DNA of 64,000 nt, from the NCBI RefSeq assembly GCF_036711975.1, contig NC_091971.1, positions 2,115,501 through 2,179,500 on the forward strand, in the 5' to 3' direction. The position numbers and the translations under genes were made by a program. Positions 9,050-62,195 of this stretch are shown here, piece after piece. Position 1 is the first letter of the stretch. Every line of letters starts with the position of its first letter. Under the pieces are notes generated by a model. That model had not been told where the DNA came from and ran no database searches. It was given only the letters and a program-made list of their open reading frames with translations. The DNA is from Onthophagus taurus. Lineage: Eukaryota > Arthropoda > Insecta > Coleoptera > Scarabaeidae.

Positions 9050-9480
9050 AAATGATTCTAGTTCTAGGCATAGTGTTAGTTCTACATAGTAAAAGTGCTA
9101 GTGTAAAACTGGAATTAACACTATACCTAGAACTAGAATCACTAGTTCTAGGCATAGTGTTAGTTCAACAAATATTTCCAAAGATTTAGGTTGGTACCAA
9201 ATGTGTTGTAGATTTAAACGTCAAAATGACGTTTAACGTTACGATGACATTTGTATGTCAAAATCAATTAAAAAATCAGAATTTAGTTTTAGTTTAATAA
9301 AAATATACAACAATCTAACACGTTCTAGTTCTAGGTCTATTTTTCATTGAAGTAAAAGTAGAACTAACACTAGACTTAAAACTAGAAACATTCGGGTTTA
9401 GCCGTCTTAAGAGACGCACGTATAAACGTTTCTAGTTCTATTAGGTCTGAACTAGACGTTCCCAAGACGTTATTCAAAAA
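9050..9480. repeat. Composite hairpin repeat (modules A and B)
   Basis: Contains the GTTCTAG/CTAGAAC repeats of module A, two copies of a TAGCCGTCTT...AGACG hairpin (near 9018 and 9402), and the module B signature (TTTAGGTTGGTACCA then AAACGTCAAAATGACGTTT at about 9185-9240). The same combination recurs at 12, 23.7, 25.6, 28.6, 36.2 and 46.3 kb. It carries no protein-coding sequence. Confidence 0.8.
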
Positions 9481-10047
9481 GGATGAAGATATTCAACAAA
9501 AAAATAAAAAAAGATTTGAAATAATTTTTATTATATTATTAATTATTAAAAACTATACCAAAACTAGTGTTAGGTATAAATGATCAAACTTATTTTTAAA
9601 ATAATAAATAAAAATTAAATTAATTAAGACGAAAATATCCTAAAAATTGTAGTTAAATGCAGCTTTATCTAGTATTATCCACGGTCATATCACCATCTCT
9701 TCATACTTCTCATTCCCCGTCTCCGAAATCAAATTAACTAAAATTACTAAAGCTTCTTGCGCACGAATGACTAAACTCAACACTACACCCGAACCTCATT
9801 AGACCCAAACGATGTCTCGCCCAGTGTAAGTTTGCGTAAAAAAATTACTCTCCACCTCACGGAATGAGGATGTATTTATGTCTGAAAATCGCTAATATCC
9901 GGAGCCCTCCTACAACGGACAGGAGGAGTCCGACAGTCGTTCCTGCAGCATCCCAGTTTATTACAAGGTGGTACAGTTAAAGCACACCAAAATTTTCCGT
10001 ATTTAATTTATTTAACCATCAAACGGTTGTTAATTGATTGTGGTAAA
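9481..10047. other. 5' flank of beta-subunit gene 2
   Basis: Intergenic DNA leading to the first exon at 10048. About 9890-9975 is less AT-rich and may be core promoter or 5' UTR. I see no clear TATA box, and no gene. Confidence 0.4.
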
Positions 10048-13000
10048 ATGCCCAATAGCAGTGCCAACACCAATAATGCTATTCCGCAAGTTAAAAGTAG
10101 GCAACAATCAATTGCCCAAATTAAACAGGAGGAATTGTTAAACGCCCAAACTGCATATTATATAAAGCCGGAAGAAATGAAGCTTTCGGATGGGCAGAAA
10201 TTCAAAAAATTTCTTTGGGATCCGAAAGAAAATAAATTATTTGGTAGAAATGGAGCGAGTTGGTGTAAGTAATTAAAAATAATTAGAATAAATTAAAAAT
10301 TTTGAAAATAGTTCACGATTTTAATCAGAGATGGCACTAAAATTAATCTAATAATTTCTTTCTAATTTTACTGATTATCCCCATCAAAATTATCTTAAAA
10401 TCTTATTTCACTTGATAAATTTCTTTTATAACGGAATTTAATTTATATAAATTCTTCAAAAACAATTAAATTTTAGTGTGGTAACATTGGTATTAAAAGA
10501 CTTTTCCCCCACCACGTCGTAAAAGACCTCGCCTATCCTATGAATCAAGCGTAAAGTAGCAGTGTTTACGTTTTTTTACGTTAGTGTTAGATTATTTGTA
10601 ACTTTTCCGTCCATTATAACTTAAATTTATTACTTCATAAACATAAAATGGTAGCTATTAAGAACGAAGACGAATTCCAAATGATGCCACCGTTAAAAAC
10701 GAAATTATTCGATCCAAAACAACGTACTCTTTTAGGTCGAGATTCGGCTAGTTGGGGTGAGCCTTTCGTTTATTTTTTAAACGGTTACTAGGGCAACGAT
10801 AAGATTAACTTTTTGATTTTATAAATTATAGTTTATATTCCTCATAATAAAATTCGTACTGTTTCCAATAATTTTGGAATGTATGAGTTGTTAAAATGAG
10901 TCATTAAAAAAGTTTTGTAATTAGTGATTTCTTTTTTTGTTTTTAGCAAAAATTGGACTTTTCTATTTGATTTTTTTATGGAATGTTAGTTGCTTTAGTA
11001 GCCATTTGTATGTGGGTGATTTTCCAAACTTTAGATCTAAGAATTCCTAAGTGGCAATTAGATAGATCGATAATCGGAGTTCTAGTTTTAGACGCACAGC
11101 TAAACCCACTGTCTAGTGTTAGTTCTAGTTTTACACTAGCACTATTACTAGAACTAACACAAGACCTTGAACTAGAATCATTCAGGTTTAGCCGTCTTGA
11201 GAGATGTGTAGCTAAATCCGAATATTTCTAGTTGTAGGTCTAATGTTAGTTGTAGTTTTACACTAGCACTATTATTAGAACTAACACAAGACCTAGAACT
11301 TGAAACATTCTTAATTTTTCTTAAAAATCCAAAAAACTGTTTTTGGAAAAAAGTCATTGTCAATTTTTGAGGTTATGTTTTTTTTTAATATTGTCAACTG
11401 ATTCTGAAGATAACGAGTTAAATAAATCTTTTATGTATATTATAAATCTAGTAAAGAAACGTTAATTTATAGTTGTACTCACGATTTATGACACTTATAG
11501 TCGAAAATTGATCCTTTTAGCATCTTCGCAGTTTGAACTTGAATTACGTCATTTTGATTGATTTTCACCCAAATTTCGATTACAACTAAAGTATGGTTTA
11601 AAATTGTTTGAGCGTTATTATAAAATAAGTTTTAGTGTGTTTTATTTTCGTTAAGAACCTAATAAATAATAAAAATTACTTTTCAAAAATTGAGTGACAG
11701 TTAAACTTCAAAAAAATTTGTTACCAACACAAACTGATAAAATAATTGTAACAACCCTAGTAACTTTTTATTTAGCCAACCTAAGATCATCAATTAACTA
11801 ATAATTAACTTTTTCTTGTATTATCTTCGGGTTAAATTCTTGTTTATATGAAAAATTACACGAGGATGTTTAGGATGTATCTCTTTTTTTTGTATGTATA
11901 TAACTACAAATTTATATAAAAACGAGTTTACATCGCTTCCGGTTAGATTTTAAATCTTGTTCAATAATTGTTAATCTCTAAATATGTGATAATTAACGAT
12001 AATATTTACGATATTTCAAAGTGAAAAATATCGTACCTACCACTATCACTAGAACTAACACAAGACCTAGAACTAGAATCATTCGGGTTTAGCTGTCTTG
12101 AGAGACGTGTGGCTAAACCCGAATGTTTCTAGTTCTATGTCTAATGTTACTTTTAGTGACATAATAAATAACAAGTAAGTTAAACCTTCGCAATAAACTC
12201 CAATCTAATGAAATAAAATCTAAAAAACTAGAACTAGAAAGTTTCCTGTTAAACGTCAATTTGACAATTAAACGTCAACATTGTTAAAAAAGATCTCAAA
12301 AAACTCAAAAATCAGTCAATTTAAATATTAAAAGTAGCGAAATATATTACTATAAATCAAAAAAGTTATTAAAAAAACTGGTTAAAAATATTCGACATTC
12401 ATCAAAAGATTTTCAAAAATTTAGGTTGGTATCATTTTAGAAAAATGTAAATTTAAACGTCAAAATGACGTTTAATGTTACGATGACATTTGTATGTTAA
12501 AATCATTTAAAAAATCAGAATTTAGTTTTAGTTTAATAACAATATACAACAATCTAACGCTTTCTAGGTCTATTTTTCATTGTAGTAAAAGTAGAACTAA
12601 CACTATACCTAGAACTAGAAACATTCGCGTTTAGCCGTCTTAAGAGACGTGCGACTATACCCGAATGTATCTAGTTCTATGTCTAAAGTTAGTTTTAGTG
12701 ACAGTGCATTCATATATTGCGAGTTATATGAAATTCCCGGTATACTTCATAATAATAAAATTTGTATTGTTTCCGATAATTTTGGAATGTATAAGTTGTT
12801 AAAAATGAGTCATTAATAAAGTTTTGTAATTAGCGGTTTCCTTTTTGTTTTTAGCAAAAATTGGACTTTTCTATTTGATTTTTTATGGAATGTTAGCTGC
12901 TTTAGTGGCGATTTGTATGTGGGTGTTTTTCCAAACGTTGGATCCAAGAATTCCTAAGTGGCAATTAGATAGATCGATAATCGGAACTAATCCCGGTTTG

Positions 13001-13781
13001 GGATTTCGACCAATGTCAATGGAAAACGCCGAAAGCACATTGATTTGGATTCAAGGAGCCAATAAGACCAATTACGAAAAGTGGAAGAGTAGTTTAAATT
13101 CATTTTTAGACAGTAAATACTAAATCAAAGTAACACATTAACTTTATTTTAATATATACATTTTTTTAAGAGTATTACACTCCTGGTATGACTGAAAAAG
13201 GAACCGCCTCTGTACGAAAATGTAGTTACACTCAACCACCGCAAAAGGGGCATGTTTGCGATGTTGATGTAAAAGTTTGGAAAGAATGTAACCGGGATCA
13301 ACATTACAATTACCACAAAAATTCACCCTGCATATTTTTGAAATTAAATAAAATTTATGGATGGATCCCCGAATATTATAACACAACAAACGGCCTTCCT
13401 CAAGATATGCCCCCAGAATTAAAAAAGCGAATTGTAGATGCTAAACCAGAAGAAAGAAACACCGTTTGGGTTAGTTGCGAAGGGGAAAACCCTGCTGATG
13501 TAGAAGCTGTTGGTCCAATTCAATACTTCCCAGATATCCAAGGTTTTCCAGGATATTATTACCCATACGAAAATGCGGAAGGATATTTAAGTCCGTTGGT
13601 TGCCGTGCATTTCCTAAGACCAAAATGTATGTAATGATTAGTGCACAACAAAATATAATTAATTTATTACTTTTTAGCTGGAATTGTAATTAACATCGAA
13701 TGTAAAGCTTGGGCGAGAAATATAAAACACAGCAGAGTCGATAGAATTGGATCCGTCCATTTTGAATTATTAATCGATTAA
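10048..13781 (+). CDS. nrv: Na+/K+-ATPase beta subunit (nervana family), gene 2, 344 aa long form
   Basis: Exons 10048-10264, 12855-13112, 13171-13626 and 13678-13781 join in phase to 344 residues. Exon 1 gives a long ~72-residue cytosolic tail (starts MPNSSANTNN, ends LFGRNGASW). Exon 2 holds the membrane span (KIGLFYLIFYGMLAALVA), then FFQTLDPRIPKWQLDRS and NPGLGFRPM. Exon 3 has SPCIFLKLNKIYGWIPEYY, VWVSCEGENP and YYYPYENAEGYLSPLVAV. Exon 4 has NIECKAWARNI and ends GSVHFELLID. The YYPY segment is the part that contacts the alpha subunit in this family. Six ectodomain Cys and two N-glycosylation sequons (NKT, NTT) are present. An alternative first exon (10648-10756) would give 308 residues. 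The 2.1-kb intron before exon 2 contains a broken copy of exon 2 and several repeat modules. AATAAA at 14079 is a likely poly(A) signal. Confidence 0.93.
10648..10756 (+). CDS. nrv: Alternative first exon of beta-subunit gene 2 (308-aa form)
   Basis: An ATG at 10648 opens MVAIKNEDEFQMMPPLK, then the family motif LLGRDSASWG just before a GTGAGC donor at 10757. Its splice phase (1, within the codon after Trp) matches that of the exon at 10048-10264, so either exon can join exon 2 at 12855. The two exons encode different cytosolic tails of about 36 and 72 residues ahead of an identical transmembrane and ectodomain part. Each probably has its own promoter. Alternative 5' exons are known for nervana genes, so this is a believable isoform pair, although transcript proof is lacking. 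Confidence 0.8.
10830..11075 (+). pseudogene. Broken duplicate of gene 2 intron end and exon 2
   Basis: This matches 12740-12985 closely, from the intron (TTTTGGAATGTAT, GTTTTGTAATTAG) through the acceptor TTTTTAG at 10946 into exon 2 (AAAATTGGACTTTTCTA, then CTAAGTGGCAATTAG). One extra T in the run after CTATTTGA shifts the frame in the transmembrane part. The copy stops after GATAATCGGA, where module A repeat sequence begins. It cannot replace exon 2. If its intact acceptor were used it would yield a frameshifted transcript. Confidence 0.85.
11076..11300. repeat. Module A repeat abutting the broken exon copy
   Basis: Made of GTTCTAG/CTAGAAC repeats around a TTAGCCGTCTTGAGAGA hairpin at about 11190. 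It starts directly at the break in the exon 2 copy and ends where sequence homologous to the 3' flank of gene 2 begins. Confidence 0.8.
11310..12030 (+). repeat. Segmental duplicate of the gene 2 3' flank (see 14110-14830)
   Basis: Matches 14110-14830 over about 700 bases in the same orientation, including TGAAGATAACGA, GTAAAGAAACGTTAATTTA, AAAATTGATCCTTTTAGCAT and GATTTTAAATCTTGTT. Small indels and substitutions separate the copies. Together with 10830-11075 it looks like the remains of a tandem duplication of gene 2 whose middle has been lost. Confidence 0.85.
12031..12170. repeat. Module A repeat
   Basis: Contains CTAGAACTAACACAAGACC, then a GGGTTTAGCTGTCTTGAGAG hairpin with its partner GTGGCTAAACCC. 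Lies in the intron of gene 2, immediately left of a gene 4-derived fragment. Confidence 0.75.
12173..12236. pseudogene. 64-bp captured fragment of gene 4 (exon end, splice acceptor, intron)
   Basis: Identical over 64 bases to 28503-28566, which on the minus strand covers the first 32 bases of the sixth exon of gene 4 (VYCEG region), its acceptor and the adjoining intron. In gene 2 it has no splicing role and stands between module A and module B repeats. At 28541 onward the same module B type repeat adjoins the source, so the fragment probably travelled with that repeat. Confidence 0.85.
12237..12690 (+). repeat. Module B repeat plus trailing module A piece
   Basis: Carries AAACGTCAATTTGACAATTA, TTTAGGTTGGTATCATTTTA, AAACGTCAAAATGACGTTT and GATGACATTTGTATG in the order seen in all module B copies. 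A module A hairpin (TTTAGCCGTCTTAAGAGAC) follows at about 12630. Confidence 0.8.
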
Positions 13782-14109
13782 GAGAAAAGTGCCATTATAA
13801 AGGTGTACAAAATAGAATCATTCCAAATAAGCCGCACAACAAAAATTAATTTTAATCTCATTCCACGTAATATAGCTTTTGATAAAAATATAGAAATGTG
13901 AAGAATCTCGAAGAATCTCTTGCAATTATTTTTTATACAGGATTGATATTTATCATTTACACCTAAGAAATATTTTATAAACAACGTTATTTCGTTTCGT
14001 ATTTAATTTTAATTATGTAAATAACCTTTAAACAACAAAGTTTTGTTGACATATGTTTTAATTGACTCGAATTTTACAATAAAAAGGATTGTTTTGAAAA
14101 TTCACCTTC

Positions 14110-14830
14110 TATTTTTTATTAAAAATCCTAAGAAGTGTTTTTGGAAAGAAATTGCATATTTTTGAGGTTATGTTTTTTTTTATATTGTCAACTTATTCTG
14201 AAGATAACGACTTAAATAAATCTTTTATGTATGTTATAAATCTAGTAAAGAAACGTTAATTTAGAGTTGTACTCACGATTTATAACACTTATAGTCGAAA
14301 ATTGATCCTTTTAGCATCTTCGGAGTTTGAACTTGAGTGACGTCGTTTGATTGATTTTCACCCAAATTTCGATTACAACTAAAGTATGGTTTGAAATTGT
14401 TTGAGTGTTATTATAAAATATGTTTTGGTGTGTTTTATTTTTCTTAAAAAACCTAATAAATAATAAAAATTGATTTTCAAAAATTGAGTGACAATTAAAC
14501 TTCAAAAAAATTTGTTACCAACACAAATTATCAAAATAATTGTAACAAACCTAGTGATTTTTTATTTAGCCAACCTAAGATCATCAATTAACTAATAATT
14601 AACTTTTTTTTGTATTATCTTCGAATTAAATTCTTGTGTATATGAAAAATTACACTAGGATGTATCACTTTTTTTGTATATAACTACAAATGTATATAAA
14701 AACGAGTTTACATCACTTCCGGTTAGATTTTAAATCTTGTTTAATAATTGTTAATCTCCTAAATATGTGATAATTAACGATAACATTTACGATATTTCAA
14801 GGTGAAAAACATCCCACATTCTTCTAAGAA
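14110..14830 (+). repeat. Original copy of the duplicated gene 2 3' flank
   Basis: Pairs with 11310-12030 in the same orientation (about 2.8 kb apart). It begins shortly after the likely poly(A) signal of gene 2 (AATAAA at 14079), so this is where the sequence belongs and 11310-12030 is the displaced copy. Confidence 0.8.
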
Positions 14831-15450: not shown

Positions 15451-15455
15451 ACCAC

Positions 15456-16544: not shown

Positions 16545-16700
16545 ATTTAGTCGTCTTGATAGACGTGCGGCTAAACCCGATACTTTCTTCTAGTTCTAGC
16601 TCTAGTGTTAGTTCTAGTTTTATATTAGCACTATCACTAGAACTAACACAAGACAAAGCTAATAATTCGGGTTTAGCCGTCTTGAGAGACGTGCTTGGTG
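16545..16700. repeat. Module A repeat
   Basis: Two TTAGCCGTCTTGAGAGACG-type hairpin halves (near 16550 and 16672) flank a GTTAGTTCTAG/CTAGAACTAAC inverted pair. It lies just downstream of the cuticle gene. Confidence 0.8.
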
Positions 16701-27748: not shown

Positions 27749-28212
27749 TTTAAATTATTTCACCCTTGTTTTTATTTTCCTTTTTTTGTGATTTTTTTAA
27801 ATAGTTTTATAACGTTTCGTTTAGGCTTTAGTACTTATTAAAAAAAAATAATAAGGAACGCGATTAATAACTTATTGTTAGAAAGTTAGTTCAATGTTTA
27901 CAAAAGAAAACCTTAATATTTGTGTCATATTAGTTTATTTACAAAAAAAATACGGAGTTAGTGCGCGCGAAAAGATGAGTTTTAATTTGTTTTGTGTAAA
28001 AGGCGCGTTAAGTTAAAAAGAACTTAATGAAAAATTTCTTAGGTGCCTTCTTCTAAATCAAAAGCGTCAAGATTTTATAATTTTTTTTGTTAGATTTTTG
28101 AAAAATTAAATATACATATTATATTTTTATGTACCACCTTTCTTTTAAACTCTATTGAAATCATATTAAACAAATGTACTACTAGAAAATAAAAATTAAA
28201 TGTTATCTATAT

Positions 28213-36084: not shown

Positions 36085-36169
36085 TATAATCAACGAAATT
36101 ATGACGGCAGATGGTGTGTGTGTGGATGCCATGACATAAGTAGACTCAGCGCTAAATTGTTGTACATTT

Positions 36170-36560
36170 TTATAGAACGAAAACTGGAACTAACATTAGA
36201 CCTAGAACTAGAAACATTCAGGTTTAGCTGCCTTAAGAGACGTGCGGCTAAACCCGATTGTTTCTAGTTCTAGGTCTAGTGTTAGTTCTAATGCTAGTAT
36301 TAGTTCTTATATTAGTTGGTATTCAGCGTAAGATGGTGTATATTTGTATTCAATACAAATATATTAAAATTATAATATTCAAAATAGAAAAAAACTGGTA
36401 AAAAAATATTCGACATTCATCAAAAGATTTCCAAAAATTTAGGTTGGTATCATTTTAGGAAAATGAGATTTAAACGTCAAACTGACGTTTAACGTTACGA
36501 TGACATTTATATGTCAAAATCTTCCTAGTTTTAGGTCTAGTGTTGGTTCTAATACTAAAA
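36170..36560 (+). repeat. Composite A+B repeat
   Basis: Module A (GGTTTAGCTGCCTTAAGAGA and partner GTGCGGCTAAACCC at about 36220-36255) followed by module B (TTTAGGTTGGTATCATTTTA at 36437, then AAACGTCAAACTGACGTTT) and a few GTTCTAG repeats. Confidence 0.8.
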
Positions 36561-49400: not shown

Positions 49401-52400
49401 ACGGTCAAGAATTGAATTCCATCTGACGTCATTGGTGACGAAAGCATCGCCGCCCGTTGAGTTCGAGTTCTATTTTTGGCCCGATGAAATGTTTATTTAA
49501 ATTCGTGTTTGAATGAAATTGAATGGATTGATCACTTTGTAGGCTTACTGTTCTTTTTTACAGAATATTTACCTGCACCTTAATAATTGGTTCCCTCTCC
49601 CAGATCCTTCCGTTTATAAAGATCCTATTGAATTACATCGACGCACTAGAAAAATGGTTAGCATGTTAATTTTTAATAATAATAATTACATTTTCATTAA
49701 TTTATTCATTTACATTATCTAACGAAACCACTTGCTTATTTGTTTTGTATTGCATGCTGCTAGATTTTTTTTTATTTCTTTATATCTGTATAGATAAGTT
49801 ATGCAGCATGACTATTTTTTTAGATAATATAATTATTGGGATTATGAGCATGATTAATTATTCTATTGTATTCATTTATTAGAAATACAGAAGAGGATTA
49901 CTATTAAACCTTTTTGTTGTCGTTTTGTGTATTTTATTGATTTTTGGTTCTTTATATTAAATTGACACCTAATTGAATCATAATCATATTACATAAACAT
50001 TTTGTGGGGATCATTTAGGTTTCAATTTAAAATGAAAATTGTAAAAAAATACACCAAGCTTTATTTATTACAGCAATTTTTGCTTTAATTTCCCCGATTT
50101 TTTTTCAAATAGCTTTTTTATCAAAAGGCATGTGAAGCTGTTTTTTGGCGAGAAAATCTGTTGTGTCCAACAAACACCGTTTAAAACACTTAAATTTAAC
50201 TTAAATTGTTTTAAACTCTGTTTAATTTTGATATTATAAAACTTTTTCTTTTAAGTCAACACTCTGCAAATGAAATTGTTGTAAAAATTGTTTTAAATCA
50301 AAATTATTATGGAAATATGAGTGTTATTTAAGGAAAAAGTAATATGTGACTAAAATTGCATGAAACGCCAACAATTTAGTTAAACATTCATTAATTTAAA
50401 TAATTTTTTCCATCAGCTACTCACTCTCTGGTCGTGGCTTCCGGTTCGAATAACAATGTACCAACCGATTCTTTTATACACAACGGAAGAACATGGATGT
50501 TCTCTTACAACATTTTTCGTAAGAGTTGAACAACACGAACCGACGTTGCTTATGATTAAAACCTCAAACAATGAAGTAAGTTATAGTTTTTAAATTTTTC
50601 TATAAATATTGGTTAAGTTATTAGTTATAAGTATTACAATAAACAACACTTTTAAACGTCGATTTGATAAGTTAAATGTCAATATCGTTAAAAATTTAGA
50701 TCTCAAAAATCAGTTAATTTTATGTCAAAAATCTTATGAAAATACTAAAATTAGCGGAAAATATTACTATAAATCAAAAAAGTTATAAAAAACGTATGAA
50801 ATATTCGATGTTCATCAACAGATTTCAAAAAAATTAGGTTGGTATGATTTTAGGGAAATGTGTTGTGGTTTTTAAACGTCAAAATGACATTTGTATGTCA
50901 AAACTATTTAAAAAATCAAAAAATGTTATACGTAAATAGAAAAAGAAAAATAAAATATCAATAAGAAAGTTGGGTGAACATGGAAAATTATAGCATTTAT
51001 CATCATGAAATAATTAACACTATTATTGCAAATGATCTGTACAAAAAGTAAAAATATTATTTGACTTTTAAACGTCAACTTGACAATTAAACGTCAACAT
51101 GGTTAAAGAAAGTAGATATTAAAAAAACTCAAAAATCAGTTAATTTTATGTTAAAAATGTTATAAAAATACTAAAATTAGTGAAAAGTATTACTATAAAT
51201 CAAAAAAGTTATAAAAAAAACTGGTATGAAATATTCGATGTTCATCAACAGATTTCAAAAAAATTAGGTTGGTATGATTTTAGGGAAATGTGTTGTGGTT
51301 TTTAAACGTCAAAATGACATTTGTATGTCAAAACTATTAAAAAAATCAAAAAATGTTATAAGTAAATAGAAAAAGCAAAATAAAATATCAATAAGAAAGT
51401 TGGGTGTACATGGAAAATTATAGCATTTATCATCATGAAATAATTAACACAATTATTGCAAATGATCTGTACAAAAAGTAAAAATATTATTTGACTTTTA
51501 AACGTCAACTTGACAATAATTAAACGTCAACATGGTTAAAGAAAGTAGATATTAAAAAAACTCAAAAATCAGTTAATTTTATGTAAAAAATCTTATAAAA
51601 ATACTAAAATTAGTGAAAAATATTACTATAAATCAAAAAAGTTATAAAAAAAAAACTGGTATAAAATATTCTATGTTCATCAACAGATTTCCAAAAATTT
51701 AGGTTGGTATGATTTTAGGGAAATGTGTTGTGGTTTTTAAACGTCAAAATGACGTTTAAACGTTAAGATGACATTTGTATGTCAAAATTATTAAAAAAAT
51801 CAAAAAATTTTGTAAGTAAATAGAAAAAGCAAAATAAAATATCAATAAGATAGTTGGGTGTACATGGAAAATTATAGCATTTATCATCATGAAATAATTA
51901 ACACAATTATTGCAAATGATCTGTACAAAAAGTAAAAATATTATTTGACTTTTAAACGTCAACTTGACAATAATTAAACGTCAACATGGTTAAAGAAAGT
52001 AGATATTAAAAAAACTCAAAAATCAGTTAATTTTATGTAAAAAATCTTATAAAAATACTAAAATTAGTGAAAAGTATTACTATAAATCAAAAAAGTTATA
52101 AAAAAAACTGGTATGAAATATTCGATGTTCATCAACAGATTTCCAAAAATTTAGGTTGGTATGATTTTAGGGAAATGTGGTTTTTAAACGTCAAAATGAC
52201 GTTTAAACGTTAAGATAATATTTATGTATGTCTAAATCATTAAAAAAATCAATTTTGTCTAAATCATCTCATACCCTACTCGTTTTTATTGACAATTGCG
52301 GACTCAGTCATTTGACTTTTAAACGTCAATTTGACAATTAAACGTCAACATCGTTAAAAACTTAAGATATTAAAAAAACTTAAAAATCAGTTCATTTAAT

Positions 52401-53065
52401 GCAAAAAATCTTATTGAAATACTAAAAATAGCGAAATATATTGCTATATATCAAAAAAGTTATAAAAATATATTTGATATTCATCAAAAGATTTACAAAA
52501 ATTTAGGTTGGTACCATTTTAGGGATATATGTTGTCAAAATGACGTTTAACGTTATGAAATGACATTTAATTTCAAAATCATTTCAAAAATCAGAAAGGG
52601 TTAATATTGCATGTAATTTTTTTCATTAAAGGTGTTTGGAGCTTATTGTTCATCAAGATGGGGTGAAAGAAATTTAAAAGATGACCGAGGAAACCGACAA
52701 GCTTACTTTGGAACTGGCGAAACCTTTTTATTCTCTCTATATCCAGAAAGGGCGAAATATCCTTGGGTTGGAATGGTTACTGATAACGTTGAACATAGTG
52801 CCGAATTGTTTATGGCAGCTGATTCAAAAATGATTACGATCGGTGGAGGGTGAGTTAATTTTTCCCCCGATTTGCTTTGTTATTAATTATTTTTCACTTT
52901 AAATTTATTTATAGTGAAGGTCAAGCGATTTGGATGGACGAAAACATCAGGTTTGGTAAAACGGATCGTTGTCAAACATTTGATAATCCCCCGTTGTGCT
53001 CAACGGGCGATTTCGAAATTCGAGTATTAGAAGTGTACGGTTTCGCTACTGAGCAATTGAATTAA
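37443..53065 (+). CDS. sky: Skywalker / TBC1D24 orthologue (TBC + TLD domains), up to 668 aa
   Basis: Exons 37443-37471, 38452-39095, 45550-45674, 47041-47187, 47241-47594, 49185-49271, 49564-49656 (cassette), 50417-50575, 52632-52849 and 52915-53065. All phases agree: 668 residues with the cassette, 637 without. Skywalker is a neuronal TBC protein acting on Rab35 and endosomal sorting of synaptic vesicles. An acidic Thr/Pro/Ser-rich N terminus precedes the TBC domain (~75-370), with NYWPVDCPIRTKLWPLLC and CPDIVYSPSIYP. A linker follows (SRSTDNLPNSQSQNNIQM), then the TLD domain (~495-668) with VFGAYCSSRW, QAYFGTGETFLFSLYPE, ITIGGGEGQAIWMDENIRF and DFEIRVLEVYGF. The start is uncertain: ATG 37443 (MKKLKLWLFR, then SEDVPGSDIVRLL) or in-frame ATG 38585 (MPSVLEDDIE). 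Introns carry many A/B repeats. AAATAAATAAA near 54295 is a likely poly(A) signal. Confidence 0.93.
39570..39940 (+). repeat. Module A and B pieces leading into the 442-bp tandem
   Basis: AGACGTGCGGCTAAAC and GTTCTAGGTCTAGTG pieces of module A (39585-39640), then module B hairpin sequence (AAACGTCAACTTGACAATTA, repeated in 39765-39800). Confidence 0.75.
39941..40824 (+). repeat. Tandem pair of 442-bp module B units
   Basis: TATTCGATGTTCTTTAAAAG recurs at 39941 and 40383, and the 442-bp segments 39941-40382 and 40383-40824 are nearly identical; I found only a few single-base differences, e.g. ACATTGTT against ACATCGTT. Each unit holds TTTTGGTTGGTACTATTTTA, AAACGTCAAAATGACGTTT and AAACGTCAACTTGACAATG. 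The near-identity points to a recent duplication. A partial third unit follows to about 40930. Confidence 0.9.
43150..43500 (-). pseudogene. Non-LTR retrotransposon reverse-transcriptase remnant with internal deletion
   Basis: The minus strand reads EDSIIVRHSKLEQTWDLYKK, then ALTEYNLAIRKAKRKT (the segment before the RT domain). Directly after this, in another frame, comes SAASFFLKGMEKVIDQYLRN, then PLHPSQHVHQKAKSTLHAL and EEAIATKEL. The second part matches the start of the RT domain of jockey/R1-like elements (S-F-x-L-K-x-M-E-K and H-P-x-Q-H-x-x-Q-x-x-K-S-T). In intact elements about 150 residues lie between these two parts, so an internal stretch is missing. Stop codons follow. An old, dead copy inside a skywalker intron, opposite in orientation to the gene. 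Confidence 0.85.
44818..44823 (+). promoter_or_regulatory. Possible TATA box of an internal skywalker promoter
   Basis: TATAAA within ACATATAAAGAG is followed by about 100 bases of unusually GC-rich DNA (GGTGCGTACGCGCCGCCCCG) and, at 44935, by TTTTCAG then GTATGG, which could act as a donor. This lies 0.7 kb before the exon at 45550. It could mark an alternative promoter or be chance. Confidence 0.3.
46230..46304 (+). pseudogene. Broken duplicate of skywalker exon 47041-47187
   Basis: Aligns with the first ~80 bases of the exon at 47041 (shared TCGAACGATTATACAAAAAT and GGATATGGTGG), including a splice acceptor (TTATAAAAG) at the same place. It lacks 6 bases near its start, differs at several sites and reads into TGA after seven codons. 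It breaks off where module A repeat begins. The true exon follows 0.8 kb downstream and is intact. Confidence 0.88.
46305..46965 (+). repeat. Composite A+B repeat between the broken and intact skywalker exons
   Basis: Starts CTAATTCTAAGTCTAGTG, carries the hairpin GGGTTTACCCGTGCGTCGCT with AGACGGCTAA, several GTTCTAG repeats, then module B (AAACGTCAATTTGACAATTA, TTTAAGTTGGTACCGTTTTA, AAACGTCAAAATGACGTTT). Confidence 0.85.
48067..48096 (+). CDS. sky: Possible 30-nt microexon of skywalker
   Basis: AGC to ATG (encodes SLSEEMYNDM) is flanked by a pyrimidine-rich acceptor (TTTTTCAATTTCAG) and a GTATTG donor, in phase 0 on both sides, and lies in the intron between phase-0 exons 47241-47594 and 49185-49271. 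Inclusion would add 10 residues between the TBC and TLD domains. Vertebrate TBC1D24 has a neuronal microexon in the gene, which makes this plausible, but the site strength alone does not prove use. Confidence 0.35.
48455..48860 (+). repeat. Module B repeat in a skywalker intron
   Basis: One unit: AAACGTCAACTTGACAATTA at 48521, TTTAGGTTGGTACTATTTTA at 48709, then AAACGTCTAAATGACGTTT and GATGACATTTGTATGTCA. The flanking AAAGTTGGATGGAAAATA matches the tail of the 442-bp units. Confidence 0.85.
49564..49656 (+). CDS. sky: In-frame cassette exon of skywalker (31 aa)
   Basis: 93 bases, phase 0 on both sides, acceptor TTTTTTACAG and donor GTTAGC. Encodes NIYLHLNNWFPLPDPSVYKD followed by a basic end (ELHRRTRKM). 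It lies between ILEQED (exon ending 49271) and LLTLWSWLPVRI (exon starting 50417), at the entry to the TLD domain. Since the flanking exons are also phase 0, it can be skipped or included without changing frame. Its own donor is weaker than its neighbours'. The proline/aromatic-rich content looks coding, not random. Confidence 0.65.
50640..52600 (+). repeat. Array of about five module B units in a skywalker intron
   Basis: The marker TTTAAACGTC at the start of each unit falls at about 50651, 51067, 51497, 51951 and 52318, so spacing is 416, 430, 454 and 367 bases. Each unit has ACTCAAAAATCAGTTAATTT, a TTAGGTTGGTATGATTTTAG core, AAACGTCAAAATGAC and, in the inner units, a TGATCTGTACAAAAAGTAAA tail. 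Inner units resemble each other more than the outer ones, as in a tandem satellite. The array ends only tens of bases before the exon at 52632. Confidence 0.9.
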
Positions 53066-56000
53066 GAAATGAGGTAACGAACAACGAATTACATCGATAA
53101 TAAAAAATTTAAATAAAAATAAGAAAGGGTTTTGAAAAAAAAACCTGTAAAATATATTCGCACTGTATAAGTGAGAATTAAGAACAATTCAATTCTAGTC
53201 TGGGTTTAATTGATAAGATTTTTTATTTTAAGGTATTGAAGTTTCTTTTTTTTTTTGTTTTTTCTATTTTGTACTTTTTCCTATCGCCCTATTTAGTCTC
53301 TTTGTGCCATTTTTTAACAGTTAAGTATTAAATTTCTTGAGTATTTGATTGTAATATCGAAATCCTCGTCGGTCCAACATATAAAATACAGAATTTAGTG
53401 ATAGATTTTTGATACAAATTAAACAAATTTGATTCGTAGTGTATATTCTATAATCATAAAAAAGCAAGTTTTAGCCCAGTGTTTTTTTTTCTATGTGTAT
53501 TTTTGAATGTAACTTCCTCATTTGTACATATTTATACATAATACATAAAGATTTGTTGTTTATTTTAAAAATTTTGTTCGCAAACGACCGCTAACGTTTT
53601 CGCTTTAACGGTTTTATTATTTTATTTTTCGCTTTTGTACATAGTCCTTCGAGAAAGGTGTCAATTATCATTAGCACAAACACTAAGAATTAGAAAAACA
53701 ATGTCTCGCATTGTATCTTTTTGTTTCTTGCGCTTCTCATCATTTTTTTTTTAAATACTTGTTACGTTTATCGTTGTTTATTTTAAGTTAATTTTATTGT
53801 GATACAAGAAAAAAATTCCTTTGTACTATCGCTTGTTGTAAAACTTCCGAAACTGGGAAGTTTTTTTCATATATATTTTCTCTAATCTATTTTCTTTTGT
53901 AAATTATTGCTTCTTCGCCACTATGTTCCAGAATGTAATATTATTTATTCAATTGTTTTCAATGTACCTACTATTATTTTATTATTATTAAAAAAGCAAG
54001 AAAAGGTTATAGATAAAGTTATATACGTATGTAAACAAACGGCACTTATTATATTATAAATGTTTTACAGCTAACATAAAGAATAATATTCGATAATATT
54101 ATTATAAAATATATATAAATATATGTGTGTTAAATATTTAAATGTGCTTAGATGTTGTTTAAGATTTATATTGTTAATAAGCAATAATCCATGTGATAAT
54201 TTTTCAATGTGTAAGATTCGAAACGAGTGTTCCGCGATGATTTTATCGAATCAAGTTCTCTATTTACTTATTGTTCTTTTTATCATTTAAACAAATAAAT
54301 AAAATCATCGTTTCTACACCAAACGTCGAATCTTTTACAACATTTTTCTTTTCAACTTGTAATGTAGTACGTAAAATTTTTAGCTTTGTATATTTTCCTG
54401 TTTATTTTTATTTTATTTTTTGCCCAAGATAGGCCGTTTTATTTTGACTGCTCTAGTTACCAGTCAGTCATTATTATTATTATTATATTCATTTGTACAG
54501 GAAAGAAAAATCCTCACGCAATAATTAATTATCTTATTATAATATTTGCGTACAAAGAAAACGTAAAGATGAAGAATGTTACAATAGATTTTAATTCCAT
54601 TTAAAAATAATTAAAAAAAAATTAATACCAAGATTTCTTTGTTGTTTGATTTTTATTAATTTCCCTGAAACTGTCATGTAATGTTGCTTATGTATGTAAT
54701 TGCAAGGCTGTACCCAAATGTTTCTAATTCTAGATCTATAACAATTTAGCGCTGAATTAATTTTGACATTCAAATGTCATCGTAACGTTAAACGTCACTT
54801 TGACATTTTTAAAAACCACAACGCTACCCTAAAATGGTACCCACCTATATTTTTGAAAAACTTTTGATATCGAATATTTCATACCAGTTTTTTATAACTT
54901 TTTTGATTTATTATAATAATATTTTTCACTAATTTTAGTATTTCCATAAGATTTTTACATGTAATTAACTGAAGTTTTTTGAGATCTAGATTTTTAACGA
55001 TATTGACGTTTATTTGTCAAATTGACGTTTAAACGTCAAATAATTGCAAGTCTAAAGTTATTAAATTCAAAATTTGTTATAAGAACTTTATTATTTAATT
55101 TTTTTTATTAAATCATAATAACTTAACCCATTTGCATCATATGATACATAAAGAAGCATTAAAACTAGAACATAGTCCTTTTTCATGTTTCTAAATTCAC
55201 AAAGTTTGATGGGTGGTGATTAAATACATACAAAGACTGAAAATCGAATAGAAAGAGGTCATTTTATTGATTTCATTAAAAATATGACAACTTTAAATTT
55301 CTTTATACTAAGAAATAATGATAATTAATAAATCGTAATAATAATAATAGTCTATAAACTATGAAATTGTCTCTCTCTCAGATACTTACAACAATTAAAA
55401 TCTTAAAAACTTGAACAGTATATTCCGTCACACAAAAGTAATATATCGATATTTCCCGATAAACATATATTTTTTTATATTAGACACAATTAGCAGCGAA
55501 AAACGGTGCCTATCTAATTTGTTTTATTTTCAAATTCCGACAATTTTAATATTATAGGCCAAAAATATGCTTAGTCTATTCCACAACAAGAAAAATATCT
55601 CGAATAGAAGCAAATAAATATATACATTGTTTTTGTATCTTTTTTTATGTTGTGTTTGAAACAGACAGAGCATTTTTATTATCTTTTTGAGTATATCCCA
55701 TTCATACCATTGGAATGTACTTAAAAAACCGCTATACAACTAATATTTACAATGAGAATTTCAAAGAAACAAGCTGCCCTCGTAAATAAATATTTTTTTA
55801 TAAGTGAGTCTTTAGTAATTAACTTATTACATTTTCAAAACATTCAAGTTGAGCTTTTTTCCAACATAATTTGATTAAGAAAGTCGCAAAAACGAAGCCC
55901 AGGCACTTACAATCACCACAAAAAAATCAAGAATAAAAAATCCGAAACTTTCTATTATATTATATACAAATACTTAAATTATTTTCTTTTTCGAATTATA

Positions 56001-56211
56001 CGCCATACACTATTCTTTTTATTTTATTTTATTTTAGTTAATAGAATGAGAAAGATTGCAAATAATACCCAAACGTAATTTAAATAAAACGAGAAATCAC
56101 AGACGATCATTGAAAAAAAAATAATAAAATTAAAACGATTTCAGGAAGAACGTTATTAAAAATATTAAAAACTTTTAAGTGTTTACAAATAAAAAAATAA
56201 TAATAAAGCGA
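53066..56211. other. Skywalker 3' UTR and gap to ultraspiracle
   Basis: About 53066-54310 is probably skywalker 3' UTR, with AATAAATAAA near 54295 as a likely poly(A) signal. An inverted module B repeat occupies 54750-55045. From 55050 to 56211 the DNA is AT-rich; its right part is probably the 3' UTR of the minus-strand ultraspiracle gene. Confidence 0.5.
54750..55045 (-). repeat. Module B repeat, inverted orientation
   Basis: Shows the module B landmarks as reverse complements: AAACGTCACTTTGACATTTT near 54790, CCTAAAATGGTACCCACCTA at 54829 and CAAATTGACGTTTAAACGTC near 55020. It is the one clear minus-strand copy in the window. Confidence 0.85.
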
Positions 56212-58513
56212 TTAAAAATCTTCACGCATTTCCGTGCTACTATCAAGCATTTTCGTGAGATATTCCTCAATGGTGTGTTCGCCGAGCAATTGGAAGACAA
56301 AAAGATGATTTAAACATTTCAAAGCGATCGATCTTAGAGCTGGTAGACGCAAAAGAAGCTTTGCAAATCGTCCCGGTTCATTTGGATGCGTCGCCTTTGT
56401 GTACTCTTCTAAAACACCGTACACTTTTTCCCGTAACATTTCCACTTCTGAAACTGATTTTAATCCACGAACATCCGAATTATATAATATTATTGTTCTA
56501 AGACATCCTAATTCTGTTTTATCCATTTTCATTTCACGCATTTTTGCTACTAATTCCGTTAAAACTCTATCGAATATACTTGCAACACCAAATTCTTTCG
56601 CTGAATTTCTATATAAAAAGAAATAAAAATATATTAGTATAATTGTTTAAAGAAAATACAGTTTAATCTCGATATAACGGATTAATATGGGGAAGGGAGT
56701 GTCTGAAAGAACTAACATTAGACCTAGAACTAGAAACATTGCGTTGTGGTTTTTAAACATAAAAATGACGTTTAAACGTCAAGATGACATTTGTATATCA
56801 AATTATTAAAAAAATCAAAAAGGATTATAAATAGAACAAGAAAAATAAAATATTAATAAGAAAGTTGGATGGAAAACTATAACATTTATCAGAATGAAAT
56901 AATTAACACCATTATTGCAAAATAATCTTAAAAAAAGTAAAAATATTATTTGACTTTTAAACGTCAACTTGACAATTAAACGTCAACATTGTTAAAGAAG
57001 ATAGATATTAAAAAAAACTCAAAAATCAGTTAATTTGATGAAAAAATCTTATTGGAATATTAAAAGTGGCGAAATATACTGATATATAATAAAAGTTGTT
57101 AAAAAACTGGTAATTTGACATTCATCAAAATATTTCCAAACGTTTAGGTTGGTACTATTTTAGAGAATGAGTTTTAATTTTTAAACGTCAAAGTGACGTT
57201 AAAATGACAATTGTATGTCAAAATCATTTAAAAAATCAAAATGGGTTGTAAACAGAACAAGAAAAATAAAATATCAATAAGAAAGTTGGATGGAAAATGG
57301 AAAACTATAGATAGCATTTATCAGAATGAAATAATTAATACCATTAATGCAAAATAATCTGTACAAAAACTAAAAATATTATTTGACTTTTAAACGTCAA
57401 CTTGACAATTAAACGTCAACATCATTAAAAAATTTAGATCTCAAAAATCAGTTAATTTAATGTAAAAGATCTTATTGAAATACTAGAAGTAGCGAAATAT
57501 ATTACTATAAATCAAAAAGTTATTAAAAAAACTGGTAAGAAATATTCCACATTCATCAAAAATTTAGGTTGGTACCATTTTAGGAAAATGTGTTGTACGT
57601 CAAAATGACGTTTAATGTCACAATGATATTTGTATATCAAAATCATTTAAAAAAATCAGAATTTAGTATTAATTTAATAAAAATATACAACAATCTAACG
57701 CTTTCTAGTTCGAGTTATAAAGATGGAATAAAACATTTTGGGGAATAACTCAAGTTGGATTCTATCTCATTCACTGATGTATTAAATAAATAATATTAAT
57801 AGTATGACTTGAGTCCGTTCTAAGGAAATTCGTTATATCAAGGTTTTACTGTAATGCTTTTTTAACCTGTGTATGGTGAATCCATTACTTAAAATAATTC
57901 CTTCCCTTGATTCTATTGATCGATGTGAAAATGACGCTATTAACAATTCATTCCAACCAGCTTTTAATAATTTCACTTGATCCGGAATTGGTAATGAAGT
58001 AAAATGAGGTATATGCTTTGCCCATTCTACTAATTGTAACAATTGTTTGTTCGTTGCGCGATAAAAATTCGAAACGGGGCTCTAAAATAAAAATAAAATT
58101 AAAATATTAGTAAAAAAAATTGTTTGATCAATAAAACATTTTAAATACTTCTACTAATTGATGTTCGTCTGTTCCATCGGCTCGTTTTTCCGCCTCTAAT
58201 ATCCGTTCCAACGGCATATCTGTTTGCATGTTTGATGTAGATTCAACCTCCGAGGTGTCCCTTTCTCTCGTCCTTTGCCTTTCTTCTTGAACTGCTTCCC
58301 TTTTCATTCCTTTTACGAGACATTTTTGATATCGACAAAATTGACATCTAAAAACAAAATAATATAATAAATTAACATACTTTTTTTGTATTTATTAATT
58401 TTTTATACCTATTTCTTTGTCTTTTATCTATAATACAATGTTTTTCTTCTCTGCATGCGTACGTTAAATCTTTCCGAACGGTTCTTTTAAAAAATCCTTT
58501 ACATCCTTCACAA
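56212..58513 (-). CDS. usp: Ultraspiracle / RXR nuclear receptor, C-terminal part (304 aa seen)
   Basis: Four minus-strand exons: 58513-58409, 58347-58149, 58081-57867 and 56608-56212 (stop TAA). All phases match. USP is the heterodimer partner of the ecdysone receptor. The first exon seen begins inside zinc finger 1 with the P-box [20 protein letters not shown] and runs into finger 2. The next has [20 protein letters not shown], the hinge, and [12 protein letters not shown]. The third holds [17 protein letters not shown] and [15 protein letters not shown] (helices 3-5). The last has [32 protein letters not shown] and the end region [14 protein letters not shown]. The ligand-binding domain is RXR-like, unlike the diverged fly and moth forms. 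Exons for the N terminus and the first half of finger 1 are not in the window, so the gene is partial. The third intron holds module B repeats. Confidence 0.95.
56700..57715 (+). repeat. Module B repeats (about 2.3 units) in an ultraspiracle intron
   Basis: TTTAAACGTCAACTTGACAA occurs at about 56957 and 57389 (432 bases apart), with AGGTTGGTACTATTTTAGAG at 57144 and AGGTTGGTACCATTTTAGGA at 57566. A short CTAGACCT-like module A scrap (ACATTAGACCTAGAACTAG) marks the left edge at about 56713. The repeats fill most of the 1.26-kb intron. Confidence 0.88.
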
Positions 58514-59084
58514 CTGCAACAAAAAAAGAAGAAATTGGTACTGTAAGGAATTAAAATAGATATGGAAACACGTATTTTTTTTAAAGAACGTTTAGTTCTT
58601 TATTTTTAAGTTTGTTTCAAATTGTTAAATTGACACATTCTTTTTTCTGCTGTTACTATCTTAAAAAAGCTGACCTTCCTAAAACCGCGGCGTTTTCAAT
58701 TACCCGGATTGTGCATGGTTCGTTGAAGAATGAGCGTGGAATACAGGAAACGTCAAAGTCAATGCCAAAGTTTGCGCAAAAACGTTCGCTGACTTCTCTT
58801 TCTCACTTACGCAACAAATAATATATACAGTTACTCACAAAATTGAGTATACAGGGGAATTAATTTATTTTGTATATATATTAACAACAATCTTATTCAC
58901 TAAATTTAATGCAAAATAATCCACTTTTCCAAATAAAATAATCACAATATTAACAATTATAACAAATGATAAAAAATGATACTGTGAATTTCAATTAAAA
59001 TGCAATATACAAAAATACATTTCCATAGAAATTAGGGGTACCAACTTACTTTGTCACACATAAAATCCAATATATCTGAATCTT

Positions 59085-59199
59085 TCTAGTTCTAAGTCTA
59101 ATGTTAGTTTTAGTGACAGTGGTAAGTAGCGCTAGTTAGCATAAGATATCACTATGTTGCATGTTTTTATTATGAAAGACGTGCGGCTAAATCTGAATG
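59085..59199 (+). repeat. Module A repeat, left half of a copy split by transposons
   Basis: CTAGTTCTAAGTCTAATGTT with AGACGTGCGGCTAAATCTGA, cut at a TA after GAATG. Its continuation (GTAGTTGTAGGTCTTGTG) is found at 61960, beyond the two inserted elements. Confidence 0.75.
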
Positions 59200-59201
59200 T
59201 A

Positions 59202-60542
59202 CAGGGTGGTTCAAATTCGATGTCCGAATAGGCTAACTCGGAAACTATAAGAGTTAGAAAAAAAGTAGCTTACATGTCATGATCTCGTTTTTCGAGAAAC
59301 TGCTAATGCCGAAAATCTCATAGCGCTATCGTCTTTTGTTTTTCCCCTAGAGGCCAAAATTGGAAATATCGTAAAACCAGCAAGTGCAATTATCTTCGCT
59401 ATTATTATAGGTGGAGTATTATAACTAAGACATTATATGGACACTTTTTTATAGAGAATTGGATGACGTAGTCAAAAAAATTTTTTCGGTTTTAGATTTT
59501 GAGATATCATCACAATTTTCGTTTTTTTAAATGGAAACAACCACTGATTATTCGCTTATTAAATTCGTTATTTTTTTCTGATTACAAAAATATAGGGTTC
59601 GACAGGTCTATTTCTTATTGTTTTAGAATAAAGCCAAAAATAAACTTTTTTTTTAAATTTCGATTTTGATGTTTGAAACAAATAAATTTGTTAAACTATT
59701 TAATTTATATATGTTTTACACAAAAGTTGGAATAGATTGCATTATTTCAAATTTTTTATTAATATTTAATATTATTATTAAATGACTTAATAAATTATTG
59801 ATAGATGGCGCTCATATATTTTTCTTTTGAATTCAAATAAACATAGCAACATTTGTTTGTATTCAAAAAGTGTCACTTTAAAAATCCTGTAATAATATTA
59901 AATATTAATAAAAAATGTGAAATAATGCAATCTATTCCAACTTTTGTGTAAAACATATATAAATTAAATAGTTCAACAAATTTATTTGTTTCAAACATCA
60001 GAAATTTGTTTTTTTAATTTTTAGTTATAGTACCATAATTTACAGGAAACTGTAAATTTAATTTCGTCGATGACACTAGATGGAAATTTAAAAAAAAAGT
60101 TTATTTTTGGCTTTATTCTAAAACAATAAGAAATAGACCTGTCGAACCCTATATTTTTGTAATCAGAAAAAAATAACGAATTTAATAAGCGAATAATCAG
60201 TGGTTGTTTCCATTTAAAAAAACGAAAATTGTGATAATATCTCAAAATCTAAAACCGACAAAATTTTTTTGACTACGTCATCAAATTCTCTGTAAAAAAG
60301 TGTCCATATAATGTCTTAGTTATAATACTCCACCTATACTAATAACCAAGATAATTACATTTGCGGGTTTTACGATATTTTCAATTTTGGCCTCTAGCGG
60401 AAAAACAAAAGACGATAGCGCTATGAGGTTTTCGGCATTAGCAGTTTCTCGAAAAACGAGATCATGACATGTCAGCTACTTTTCTTCTAACTCTTATAGT
60501 TTTCGAGTTAGCCTATTCGGACATCGAATTTGAACCACCCTG
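59202..60542. mobile_element. Foldback element with ~600-bp inverted arms (TA target)
   Basis: Starts CAGGGTGGTTCAAATTCGAT and ends with the reverse complement ATCGAATTTGAACCACCCTG. The arms stay complementary far inward: AGACGATAGCG near 60410, CTATATTTTTGTAATCAGAA near 60150, and AAGTTGGAATAGATTGCATT near 59723 with its partner near 59925. An indel of about 60 bases separates the arms near 60010-60080, and a short unpaired centre lies near 59830. TA flanks both ends (59200-59201 and 60543-60544). It has no open frame of note, so it is non-autonomous. The TA target suggests mobilisation by a Tc1/mariner-type enzyme. Confidence 0.88.
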
Positions 60543-60544
60543 TA

Positions 60545-61956
60545 CAGTCAGTCCCAAAAGTCATCGTACACAAATGGTTTTCGCATGATTTCCAAAACGT
60601 GATCGTAAATAAAAGAATTTTTTTATTACCATACATATAATTATTTATTTTTAACAGATTTATAAACAGAAAACACTGCAATTTAACAAAATAACAAAAT
60701 TACTTAATAATTCTTCAAAATCGTTCCATTGCAATCTCACAAAAGTAATCGTACATCTGAAAACCGACAGGGGTTTCCCCGTCTCTTTGTCAATTACGTG
60801 GGATTTCCCGTGCAGCTAGTCTAACCTGCCCTACATCTAGTAATCGTTGCTCTCCGTTTGTCAAAAAAGTGTCATGGCTCCCCAGAGAACGGAAACAAGT
60901 GTAGAAGTGAGAAAAATTGTTATAAAATTACATAATGAAGGTCGATCTATACGTGAAATCGCTAAAACACTTAATAAAAGTGCTTCTACAATTCAGTATA
61001 TAATTAAAAGGTTTGTGGATACCGGAAATATTGAAAATGCTCCGCGCACTGACCGTCCAAAATTGTTGACTCCCCGAGAAGAACGAAGCATTAGGCAAGA
61101 AGTCAACACAAATCCTCGGATAAGAGCATCCAAAAGGGTCATCTTTACAGATGAATCAAAATATAACATTTTTGGATGCGATGGTAGGGGTAAAATTTGG
61201 AGGAAGGCCGGTACAGCCCTAGATTTAAAAAATCTCCTACCAACAGTGAAACATGGCGGTGGATCCGTGATGGTATGGGGATCCATGGCTGCTTCAGGAG
61301 TCGGTAGTTCAGTCTTTATTGAAAATATAATGAATAAGTGGCAATATTTAAATATTTTAAAGGCTAATTTAAAGCAAAATGCTATACAATTGTGTCTTGG
61401 AAGTAATTGGATTTTCCAACAAGACCAAGACCCAAAGCATACAGCACATGTAGTTCGCGAATGGCTTTTATATAATGTGCCCAAGCAGCTACATTCTCCT
61501 CCACAATCACCGGATATTAACCCCATAGAGCACGTGTGGGATTACTTAGAAAAATCTATTAGAATGCACAACATTAGTAGCAAGGAATCCCTAAAAGCTG
61601 CATTACAAGTAGAGTGGGATAAAATTCCGGCATCATACACTGAAAAACTTGTTCAATCTATGAGAGAAGACTAAAAGCTGTACTTAAAGCGAACGGAGGA
61701 CCAACCAAGTACTAGTACCAGCTTGGCTGCGTCTTTAATTACAACTTTTGGATCTGTACGATCACTTTTGTGACATTCCAATGGAAGAATTTTGAAGAAC
61801 TATTAAGTTATTTTGTTAAATTGCAGTGTTTTCTGTTTATAAATCTGTTAAAAATAAATAATTATGTGTATGGTAATAAAAAAATACTTTTTTTACGACC
61901 TCATTTTGGATATTATGCAAAAACCGTCGGTGTACGATGACTTTTGGGACTGACTG
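60545..61956 (+). mobile_element. Tc1-type DNA transposon, 1412 bp, IR/DR structure
   Basis: The left end CAGTCAGTCCCAAAAGTCAT and right end ATGACTTTTGGGACTGACTG are exact inverted repeats flanked by TA. The inverted repeats run inward about 215 bases with a divergent middle: ACAGAAAACACTGCAATTTA at about 60667 has its partner at about 61830. Each repeat also holds an inner site like the outer tip (CACAAAAGTAATCGTACA near 60738; TGTACGATCACTTTTGTG near 61754). That is the IR/DR plan of Tc1-like elements with two transposase-binding sites per end. It carries one transposase gene. Confidence 0.92.
60874..61674 (+). CDS. Tc1-like transposase with internal deletion, 266 aa
   Basis: Cut-and-paste transposase. 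The N terminus is a helix-turn-helix (KIVIKLHNEGRSIREIAKTL, SASTIQYIIKRF) for end binding. The catalytic domain shows TDESKYNIFG (first Asp), FQQDQDPKHTAHVVREW (second Asp) and SPDINPIEHVWDYL (Glu), the DD34E type of Tc1, plus KHGGGSVMVWG. Full-length relatives are about 340 residues; here NPRIRASK runs directly into RVIFTDES, so ~60-70 residues of the second DNA-binding helix region and the linker are missing without loss of frame. The ATG at 60874 (MAPQRTETSV) is the best start. Loss of the second helix-turn-helix probably inactivates it, although the catalytic residues and frame are intact, which suggests a young insertion. Confidence 0.92.
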   Translation: MAPQRTETSVEVRKIVIKLHNEGRSIREIAKTLNKSASTIQYIIKRFVDTGNIENAPRTDRPKLLTPREERSIRQEVNTNPRIRASKRVIFTDESKYNIFGCDGRGKIWRKAGTALDLKNLLPTVKHGGGSVMVWGSMAASGVGSSVFIENIMNKWQYLNILKANLKQNAIQLCLGSNWIFQQDQDPKHTAHVVREWLLYNVPKQLHSPPQSPDINPIEHVWDYLEKSIRMHNISSKESLKAALQVEWDKIPASYTEKLVQSMRED

Positions 61957-61958
61957 TA

Positions 61959-62195
61959 TGTAGTTGTAGGTCTTGTGTTAGTTCTAATTTTACATTAGCA
62001 CTATCACTAGAACTAACACAAGACCTAGAACTAGAATCATTCGGGTTTAGCCGTCTTGAGAGACGTGCGGCTAAACCCGAACGATTCTAGTTCTCGGTCT
62101 AGTGTTAGTTCCAGTATTGCATTAGCACTACTACAAGAACTAACACAAGACCTAGAACTAGAATCATTCGGATTTAGCCGTAATGTTCACTGATA
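61959..62195 (+). repeat. Module A repeat, right half of the split copy
   Basis: Follows the TA at the right end of the Tc1 element. Contains a near-perfect hairpin GGGTTTAGCCGTCTTGAGAG paired with GTGCGGCTAAACCCGA, two GTTAGTTC/GAACTAAC inverted pairs, and hairpin cores 128 bases apart (62038 and 62166). Confidence 0.85.

Follow-up and report, generated by a model that had tools for sequence, protein, structure and literature searches.

The window analyzed in the present study, a stretch of 64,000 nucleotides of Onthophagus taurus DNA, corresponds to C6:2115501-2179500, and searches were extended to the genome (290.8 Mb, 33 contigs). Pfam confirmed a Na/K-ATPase beta gene, a nuclear-receptor ligand-binding domain, and a cuticle protein in the window. 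The nuclear-receptor exon had Ultraspiracle 2nxx, presumably the Tribolium protein, as its best structure match. For the remaining large gene, which we take to be TBC1D24-like, a Pfam scan of three pieces gave no match. Two Na/K-ATPase beta-like stretches, 3727-4564 (minus strand, labeled from resemblance alone) and 12922-13778 (plus strand), lie in opposite orientation with 67-74% DNA identity.

A first-pass annotation had proposed that a family of two hairpin-forming modules, A and B, occurs here, with both modules together in at least seven copies. The repeat family is real, its motifs are present as described, and it is a satellite-like family spread through gene-rich DNA, as the annotation had held. 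The window contains nine blocks with both modules, three with B only, and four with A only, plus single stray pieces at 18733 and 58077. In the feature map, A+B blocks are located on the plus strand at 9018-9440 (A hairpins, the 3' part of B, loop C, and A) and 23736-24249, both also in the cluster list, and at 28503-28924 and 36146-36557. On the same strand, A is followed by a tandem B array with a 442-base period at 39577-40931, a B-only block lies at 48498-48855, and a tandem B array with a 454-base period occupies 50649-52603. B with its A-side linker is found on the minus strand at 54706-55141, with a short A-like match at its beginning, and an A-only block lies at 16546-16694. Two further A pieces (59071-59198 and 61950-62181), which are perhaps one array, enclose two transposon-like inserts. 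The first insert, at 59199-60545, contains sequences of 466 bases in inverted orientation (96% identity) and resembles a foldback element or a MITE; it adjoins the second, a Tc1-like transposon at 60552-61949 with inverted ends of ~200 bases (87%) and a 276-codon frame carrying DDE_3 and HTH domains.

The unit of module A, ~128 bases in length, comprises two stacked palindromes, CTAGTTCTAG...CTAGAACTAG and GGGTTTAGCC...GGCTAAACCC. Single-strand folds of 61961-62085 and 62025-62110 had z scores of -12.3 and -9.5, respectively, against 200 shuffles, and the distance between successive GGGTTTAGCC hairpins peaked at 110-130 bases in 13 loci (values rounded to tens). The hairpins and the ~128-base period attributed to this module were thus confirmed. 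By eye, the first palindrome has three kinds of loop: a short loop of ~19 bases, loop C of ~51 bases, and loop T of ~57 bases.

Module B is a second satellite of ~440 bp, usually located between A half-hairpins. Its period is 442-454 bases where it is tandem in the window, in which its core, AGGTTGGTACCATTTTAGG, occurs 18 times with up to four mismatches. The hairpins ascribed to B stood in part. The 3' AAACGTC/GACGTTT pair folded at 28781-28870 (z = -4.1, surpassing each of 200 shuffles); at 9170-9250 its fold was less distinct (z = -2.3, equaled by 4 of 200 shuffles). The 5' AAACGTC pair at 12246-12330, however, folded no better than shuffles (z = -0.15). In B loci on C6, C3, and C11, an A half-palindrome is followed by linker L1, B, and any further repeats of linker L2 and B; loop C and an A half-palindrome then follow in part of these loci. 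Because of this order, B may be read as sitting in the loop of an A hairpin. No clear A was detected alongside three B blocks of the window.

The two modules are of unequal standing, with A genome-wide and B regional. The A hairpin (36-base pattern) had 8,458 genome matches and the B hairpin (24-base pattern) had 114, each with up to two mismatches, and their maps are quite different; therefore, A is widespread without B. In turn, B is seldom far from A. The 37 exact B hairpins were confined to C6:1.27-4.34 Mb (31) and C3:26.03-26.80 Mb (6), and 34 further hairpins with one mismatch were distributed over C6 (27, one of them at 15.27 Mb), C3 (2), C1 (3), C2 (1), and C11 (1). The three near-matches on C1 are spaced by 715 bases. 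Similarly, the exact B core matched the genome 16 times, 12 times on C6:2.01-4.34 Mb and four times on C3, and a BLAST-type search returned at least 79 B matches, at least 71 of which were on C6 (40 of 75 first-look places scored). In four loci (L001, L061, L050, and L038), other satellites with offsets of ~180-190 bases, or multiples thereof, lie no more than 0.5 kb from A or B, and it is possible that satellites cluster more widely.

The genome outside the window revealed what module A belongs to. Module A is the tandem hairpin interior of a family of elements with terminal inverted repeats (TIRs). In loci fetched for A on C11, C6, and C3, a flank of ~120 bases, designated D, lay within ~7 bases of A. 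A search with D alone listed 40 copies; among the 15 fetched, A was directly upstream of D in 13 and was not found beside D in two (L080 and L082). The terminus of D is CTCCTCCGAATTAAAAAATAGAG, and an inverted copy of it lies across the array in L012, L033, L069, and L075. Nine two-ended elements of 686-6,256 bp were obtained, with versions of CTCTATTTTTTAATTCGGAGGAG as their termini. TA stands outside both TIRs in eight of the nine and on one side only in L033. Since TATA is present outside most elements, this TA could have arisen by duplication or belong to the element's terminus itself; by eye, no target-site duplication longer than TA was found in the nine elements.

The TIR pattern matched the genome at 232 places with at most one mismatch (100 listed). 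From the D and TIR matches listed, we selected by eye five inward-facing TIR pairs (L084-L088), disregarding A. All five enclosed A-like sequence, which in L084 is a fragment of only 37 bases beside D. The end opposite D, beginning GTAAAATGAAAAGTCACGTTTACACAGTG..., is common to L084, L085, and L075 with small differences; a shorter part of it is present in L069, L086, and L088, and only ~12 bases in L087. As in MITE-borne satellites, these TIRs surround an interior with a variable number of tandem repeats.

The longest element, L084, has 6.26 kb between its TIRs and contains decayed genes. On one strand, a broken frame, with X at one stop, matched Myb_DNA-bind_5 (PF13873) at 1e-15. On the other strand, a few hundred bases inward of the TIR opposite D, two pieces joined with X matched DDE_Tnp_4 at 2.8e-6, a score that passes the curated cut-off. 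Because L084 carries these decayed DDE_Tnp_4 and Myb/SANT genes, we place the family near PIF/Harbinger in the PHIS superfamily, a transposase assignment made from one decayed copy. The 3-bp TWA duplication of PIF/Harbinger proper was not found in the nine two-ended elements, which have TA at most; therefore, the family is placed in PHIS without a group. A Helitron reading of A, in which a hairpin is followed by CTAG, was dropped because the nine two-ended elements carry TIRs, with TA outside eight of them.

Neither D nor the TIR was found when the window was searched for them. Since the window carries no element end, its A arrays are interior pieces, and A looked unclassified there. The first-pass annotation had seen no transposase in the family and missed the transposon origin of module A for the same reason; this part of it is superseded by the TIRs, the TA flanks, and the one decayed relative with DDE and Myb genes. 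Arrays that lack element ends exist in the window and elsewhere. Among 17 A-only loci, several of which do not span their array from end to end, the TIR was present in just three (L012, L033, and L035).

The association of A with the TIR element may also be read in the reverse direction. A and B together would then be an independent satellite spread by extrachromosomal circles, and the TIR element would merely have captured A. Array ends are variable outside TIR elements, as such a satellite would lead us to expect. Moreover, excerpts of the literature propose that MITEs capture pre-existing tandem repeats (PMC12628747) and describe satellite arrays in circular DNA in Tribolium freemani (PMC13081366). 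However, A meets D at one junction in nearly all D copies fetched, and the A-like remnant of L084 also adjoins D. We consider the capture of a circle-borne satellite to be rather doubtful.

With A and B masked, we then counted direct duplications of 100 bases or longer. Three events (four alignments) of ~0.14, ~0.14, and ~2 kb were found in the window, all on the plus strand. In the largest, 10834-11078 aligned with 12741-12985 (91.5%) and 11312-12032 with 14110-14813 (90.7%). The second copy (12741-14813) includes Na/K-ATPase beta exons by alignment and Pfam; the part of the first copy at 10834-11078 holds a broken partial copy of such an exon and ends at A. An A array at 11090-11310 follows, where the first copy has no counterpart of 12986-14109. 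The join is an A+B+A block (12037-12744), the final 40 bases of which recur at other loci. This 40-base repeat (CATTCATATATTGCGAGTTATATG...) was observed at 12705-12744, where it abuts A, and at 63930-63969 in the window, as well as in L049 (2471-2517) and L093 (321-367). In the second event, 25419-25558 aligned with 26090-26210 (80.7%) around an A+B block at 25593-26085; no exon was seen in it, and it was absent from the first-pass annotation. In the third, 46162-46301 aligned with 46976-47118 (79.6%) around a block of A, linker, and B at 46303-46970. By eye, its left copy is a broken copy of an exon start, and its right copy runs on into the remainder of the exon.

The space between the copies was filled by an A+B block in all three duplications, and broken exon copies were present in two, identified by eye in the 46-kb case. 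To the left and right of the block, 4 and 32 bases remained at the 12-kb join (4 and none when the 40-base repeat piece is counted), 34 and 4 at the 25-kb join, and 1 and 5 at the 46-kb join. When 25 clusters were placed at random in simulations, the chance of all three joins lying within 40 bases of a cluster was ~4e-5. The 25 clusters take in ~9 short or doubtful hits, and one at 27608-27808 resembles an exon; keeping the doubtful clusters makes this estimate larger. The proposed coincidence of duplication breaks with the family was thus upheld in the window. The layout at the joins, flank-T-(A+B)-T-flank, resembles a very long target-site duplication T.

Outside the window, the same layout was found in L048, with a T of ~320 bases that resembles part of a retrotransposon gene and copies within a few bases of A+B (each by eye). 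This was the sole flanking duplication in 30 B clusters, which comprise 23 loci (L043 and L066 taken as one) and eight fresh loci. In the fresh test set, with flanks down to ~0.4 kb and practically none in L096, flanking duplications were found in none of the eight clusters. Because flanks were 0.4-1.5 kb in length and some arrays run off their locus (e.g. L003, L043/L066, L047, and L059), a duplication as long as that of 2 kb would be missed. L097 and L098, which cover more of the sequence surrounding clusters in this count, revealed no further duplication. An inverted pair of 411 bases (99% identity) at 5853-7052 of L098, also present in L041, ends 30 bases from an A+B block at C6:1.35 Mb. 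None of the 17 A-only loci had a flanking duplication; in several of them, one or both array ends lie beyond the locus, and L019 and L023 belong to a single array. The background for direct duplications was drawn entirely from the window and the loci fetched. The counts exclude a direct match of 42 bases (39698/48455) next to B, inverted pairs, satellites of other kinds (L001, L038, L050, L061, L096, and L020), repeats within other elements (L021, L085, and L087), short local repeats (L013, L042, L071, L072, L077, and L083), and short fragments of A+B itself (L022, L028, L059, and L062). With flush duplications in just 1 of 30 outside clusters and 0 of 8 fresh ones, the suggestion that the family drives local segmental duplication was not demonstrated.

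We favor, with moderate confidence, the following account: module A is the interior of a non-autonomous transposon related to PHIS elements, its arrays outlive the element ends, and A+B fills breaks and thereby duplicates the flank. Palindromic units would have multiplied inside a non-autonomous DNA transposon related to PIF/Harbinger. Arrays would then have lost the element ends and stayed as short satellite-like arrays; the element and the endless arrays were both observed, and the loss that connects them is our reconstruction. B, with its surrounding A, appears to have multiplied chiefly within 3 Mb of C6 and to a small extent on C3; its order and distribution are seen in the data, and its nesting in A is the supposed step. 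Since the copies in the window have no TIR, they probably did not arrive as intact transposons. Instead, A+B DNA may have been captured as filler in a staggered break, and fill-in and joining would have duplicated the sequence that separates the nicks. In plants, filler insertion accompanied by duplications of this kind has reportedly been described by Vaughn and Bennetzen. Stated generally, a hairpin satellite may spread as break filler without a transposase and can leave direct duplications of 0.14-2 kb, so that it makes partial exon copies; we put this forward tentatively, as a possibility short of an even prospect. Template switching at the hairpin of a resident A+B copy was rejected because two A+B blocks per duplication would then be expected and were not seen.

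Tandem duplications may instead have come first, with A+B inserted later by preference for the joins. The duplicate copies are 80-91% alike and separate A+B blocks mostly 77-86%, which points to roughly similar ages and leaves room for this order of events. However, it requires three independent hits near points, for which the random-placement estimate given above is very small, and we regard it as unlikely. Non-allelic homologous recombination between A+B copies flanking a segment may also have duplicated that segment, and many A+B blocks do lie near each other in the same orientation. This process is expected to leave A+B at the outer edges; however, no A or B feature was found within ~0.6 kb of the six outer edges (10834, 14813, 25419, 26210, 46162, and 47118), which makes recombination quite improbable. 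The weakest alternative takes A+B as the inside of a pogo-like element. It arose as our first candidate for the ends of A+B, since pogo-like TIR pairs with TA outside surround 56657-57852 in the window, an A+B block, and 1443-2130 of L057; these two stretches lie ~17 kb apart and differ in their A+B contents. The end pattern, however, gave 375 matches, of which the 100 listed are scattered genome-wide, whereas B is regional, and such an end occurs at a minority of A or B loci only; the alternative was therefore dropped as very improbable.

Under the favored account of a PHIS-related interior that became a satellite and filled breaks, these repeats offer a worked case, in one genome, of the passage from DNA transposon to satellite DNA. 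The series comprises a decayed element that retains fragments of transposase and Myb genes, short TIR elements, endless arrays, and a second satellite lodged between half-hairpins. Should the filler reading be true, it would allow a concrete test of the way in which satellite arrays reach new sites beside genes and at once create partial exon copies.

The conversion of transposons to satellites is already known. In the titles and abstract openings listed by searches of the open-access literature, we found no description of a hairpin satellite borne by a PHIS element. The comparisons that follow draw on excerpts of the cited articles. In PIF/Harbinger, Pangu, and Nuwa elements, the DDE transposase is accompanied by a second gene of Myb/SANT type (PMC4482050). 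The present family resembles PIF/Harbinger and its PHIS relatives (ISL2EU, Spy, Pangu, and Nuwa) in its DDE_Tnp_4 domain, its Myb/SANT gene, and its AT-rich target. However, its TA flanks match none of their targets as given there, namely, TWA for PIF/Harbinger, AT for ISL2EU, no duplication at AAATTT for Spy, ANT for Pangu, and CWG or CTNAG for Nuwa (PMC4482050).

Small tandem duplications have been shown to arise by fill-in of break ends at Cas9 cuts in cells (PMC8355091); that work serves here as a model for fill-in and not as evidence for the locus in the window. TCAST elements of Tribolium castaneum are likewise satellite-like repeats located by genes in beetle euchromatin (PMC3411249); their source is a major pericentromeric satellite. 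The closest parallels are MITE-borne satellites. Xstir and miDNA4 of Xenopus are TIR elements with internal tandem repeats of variable number, the arrays of which can outlast the ends (PMC12628747). In the route published for MITEs, internal tandem repeats expand and eventually become independent satellite arrays (PMC12628747); since the arrays of the window are interior pieces, they fit this route. Judging by titles among the references of the same article, tetris of Drosophila virilis and elements of Donax trunculus are further MITE-borne satellites. The host of miDNA4 is a Tc1/mariner element, whereas the host described here is PHIS-like. The present family also differs from MITE-borne satellites in its two-palindrome unit, in the second satellite between half-hairpins, and in the flank duplications at some copies.
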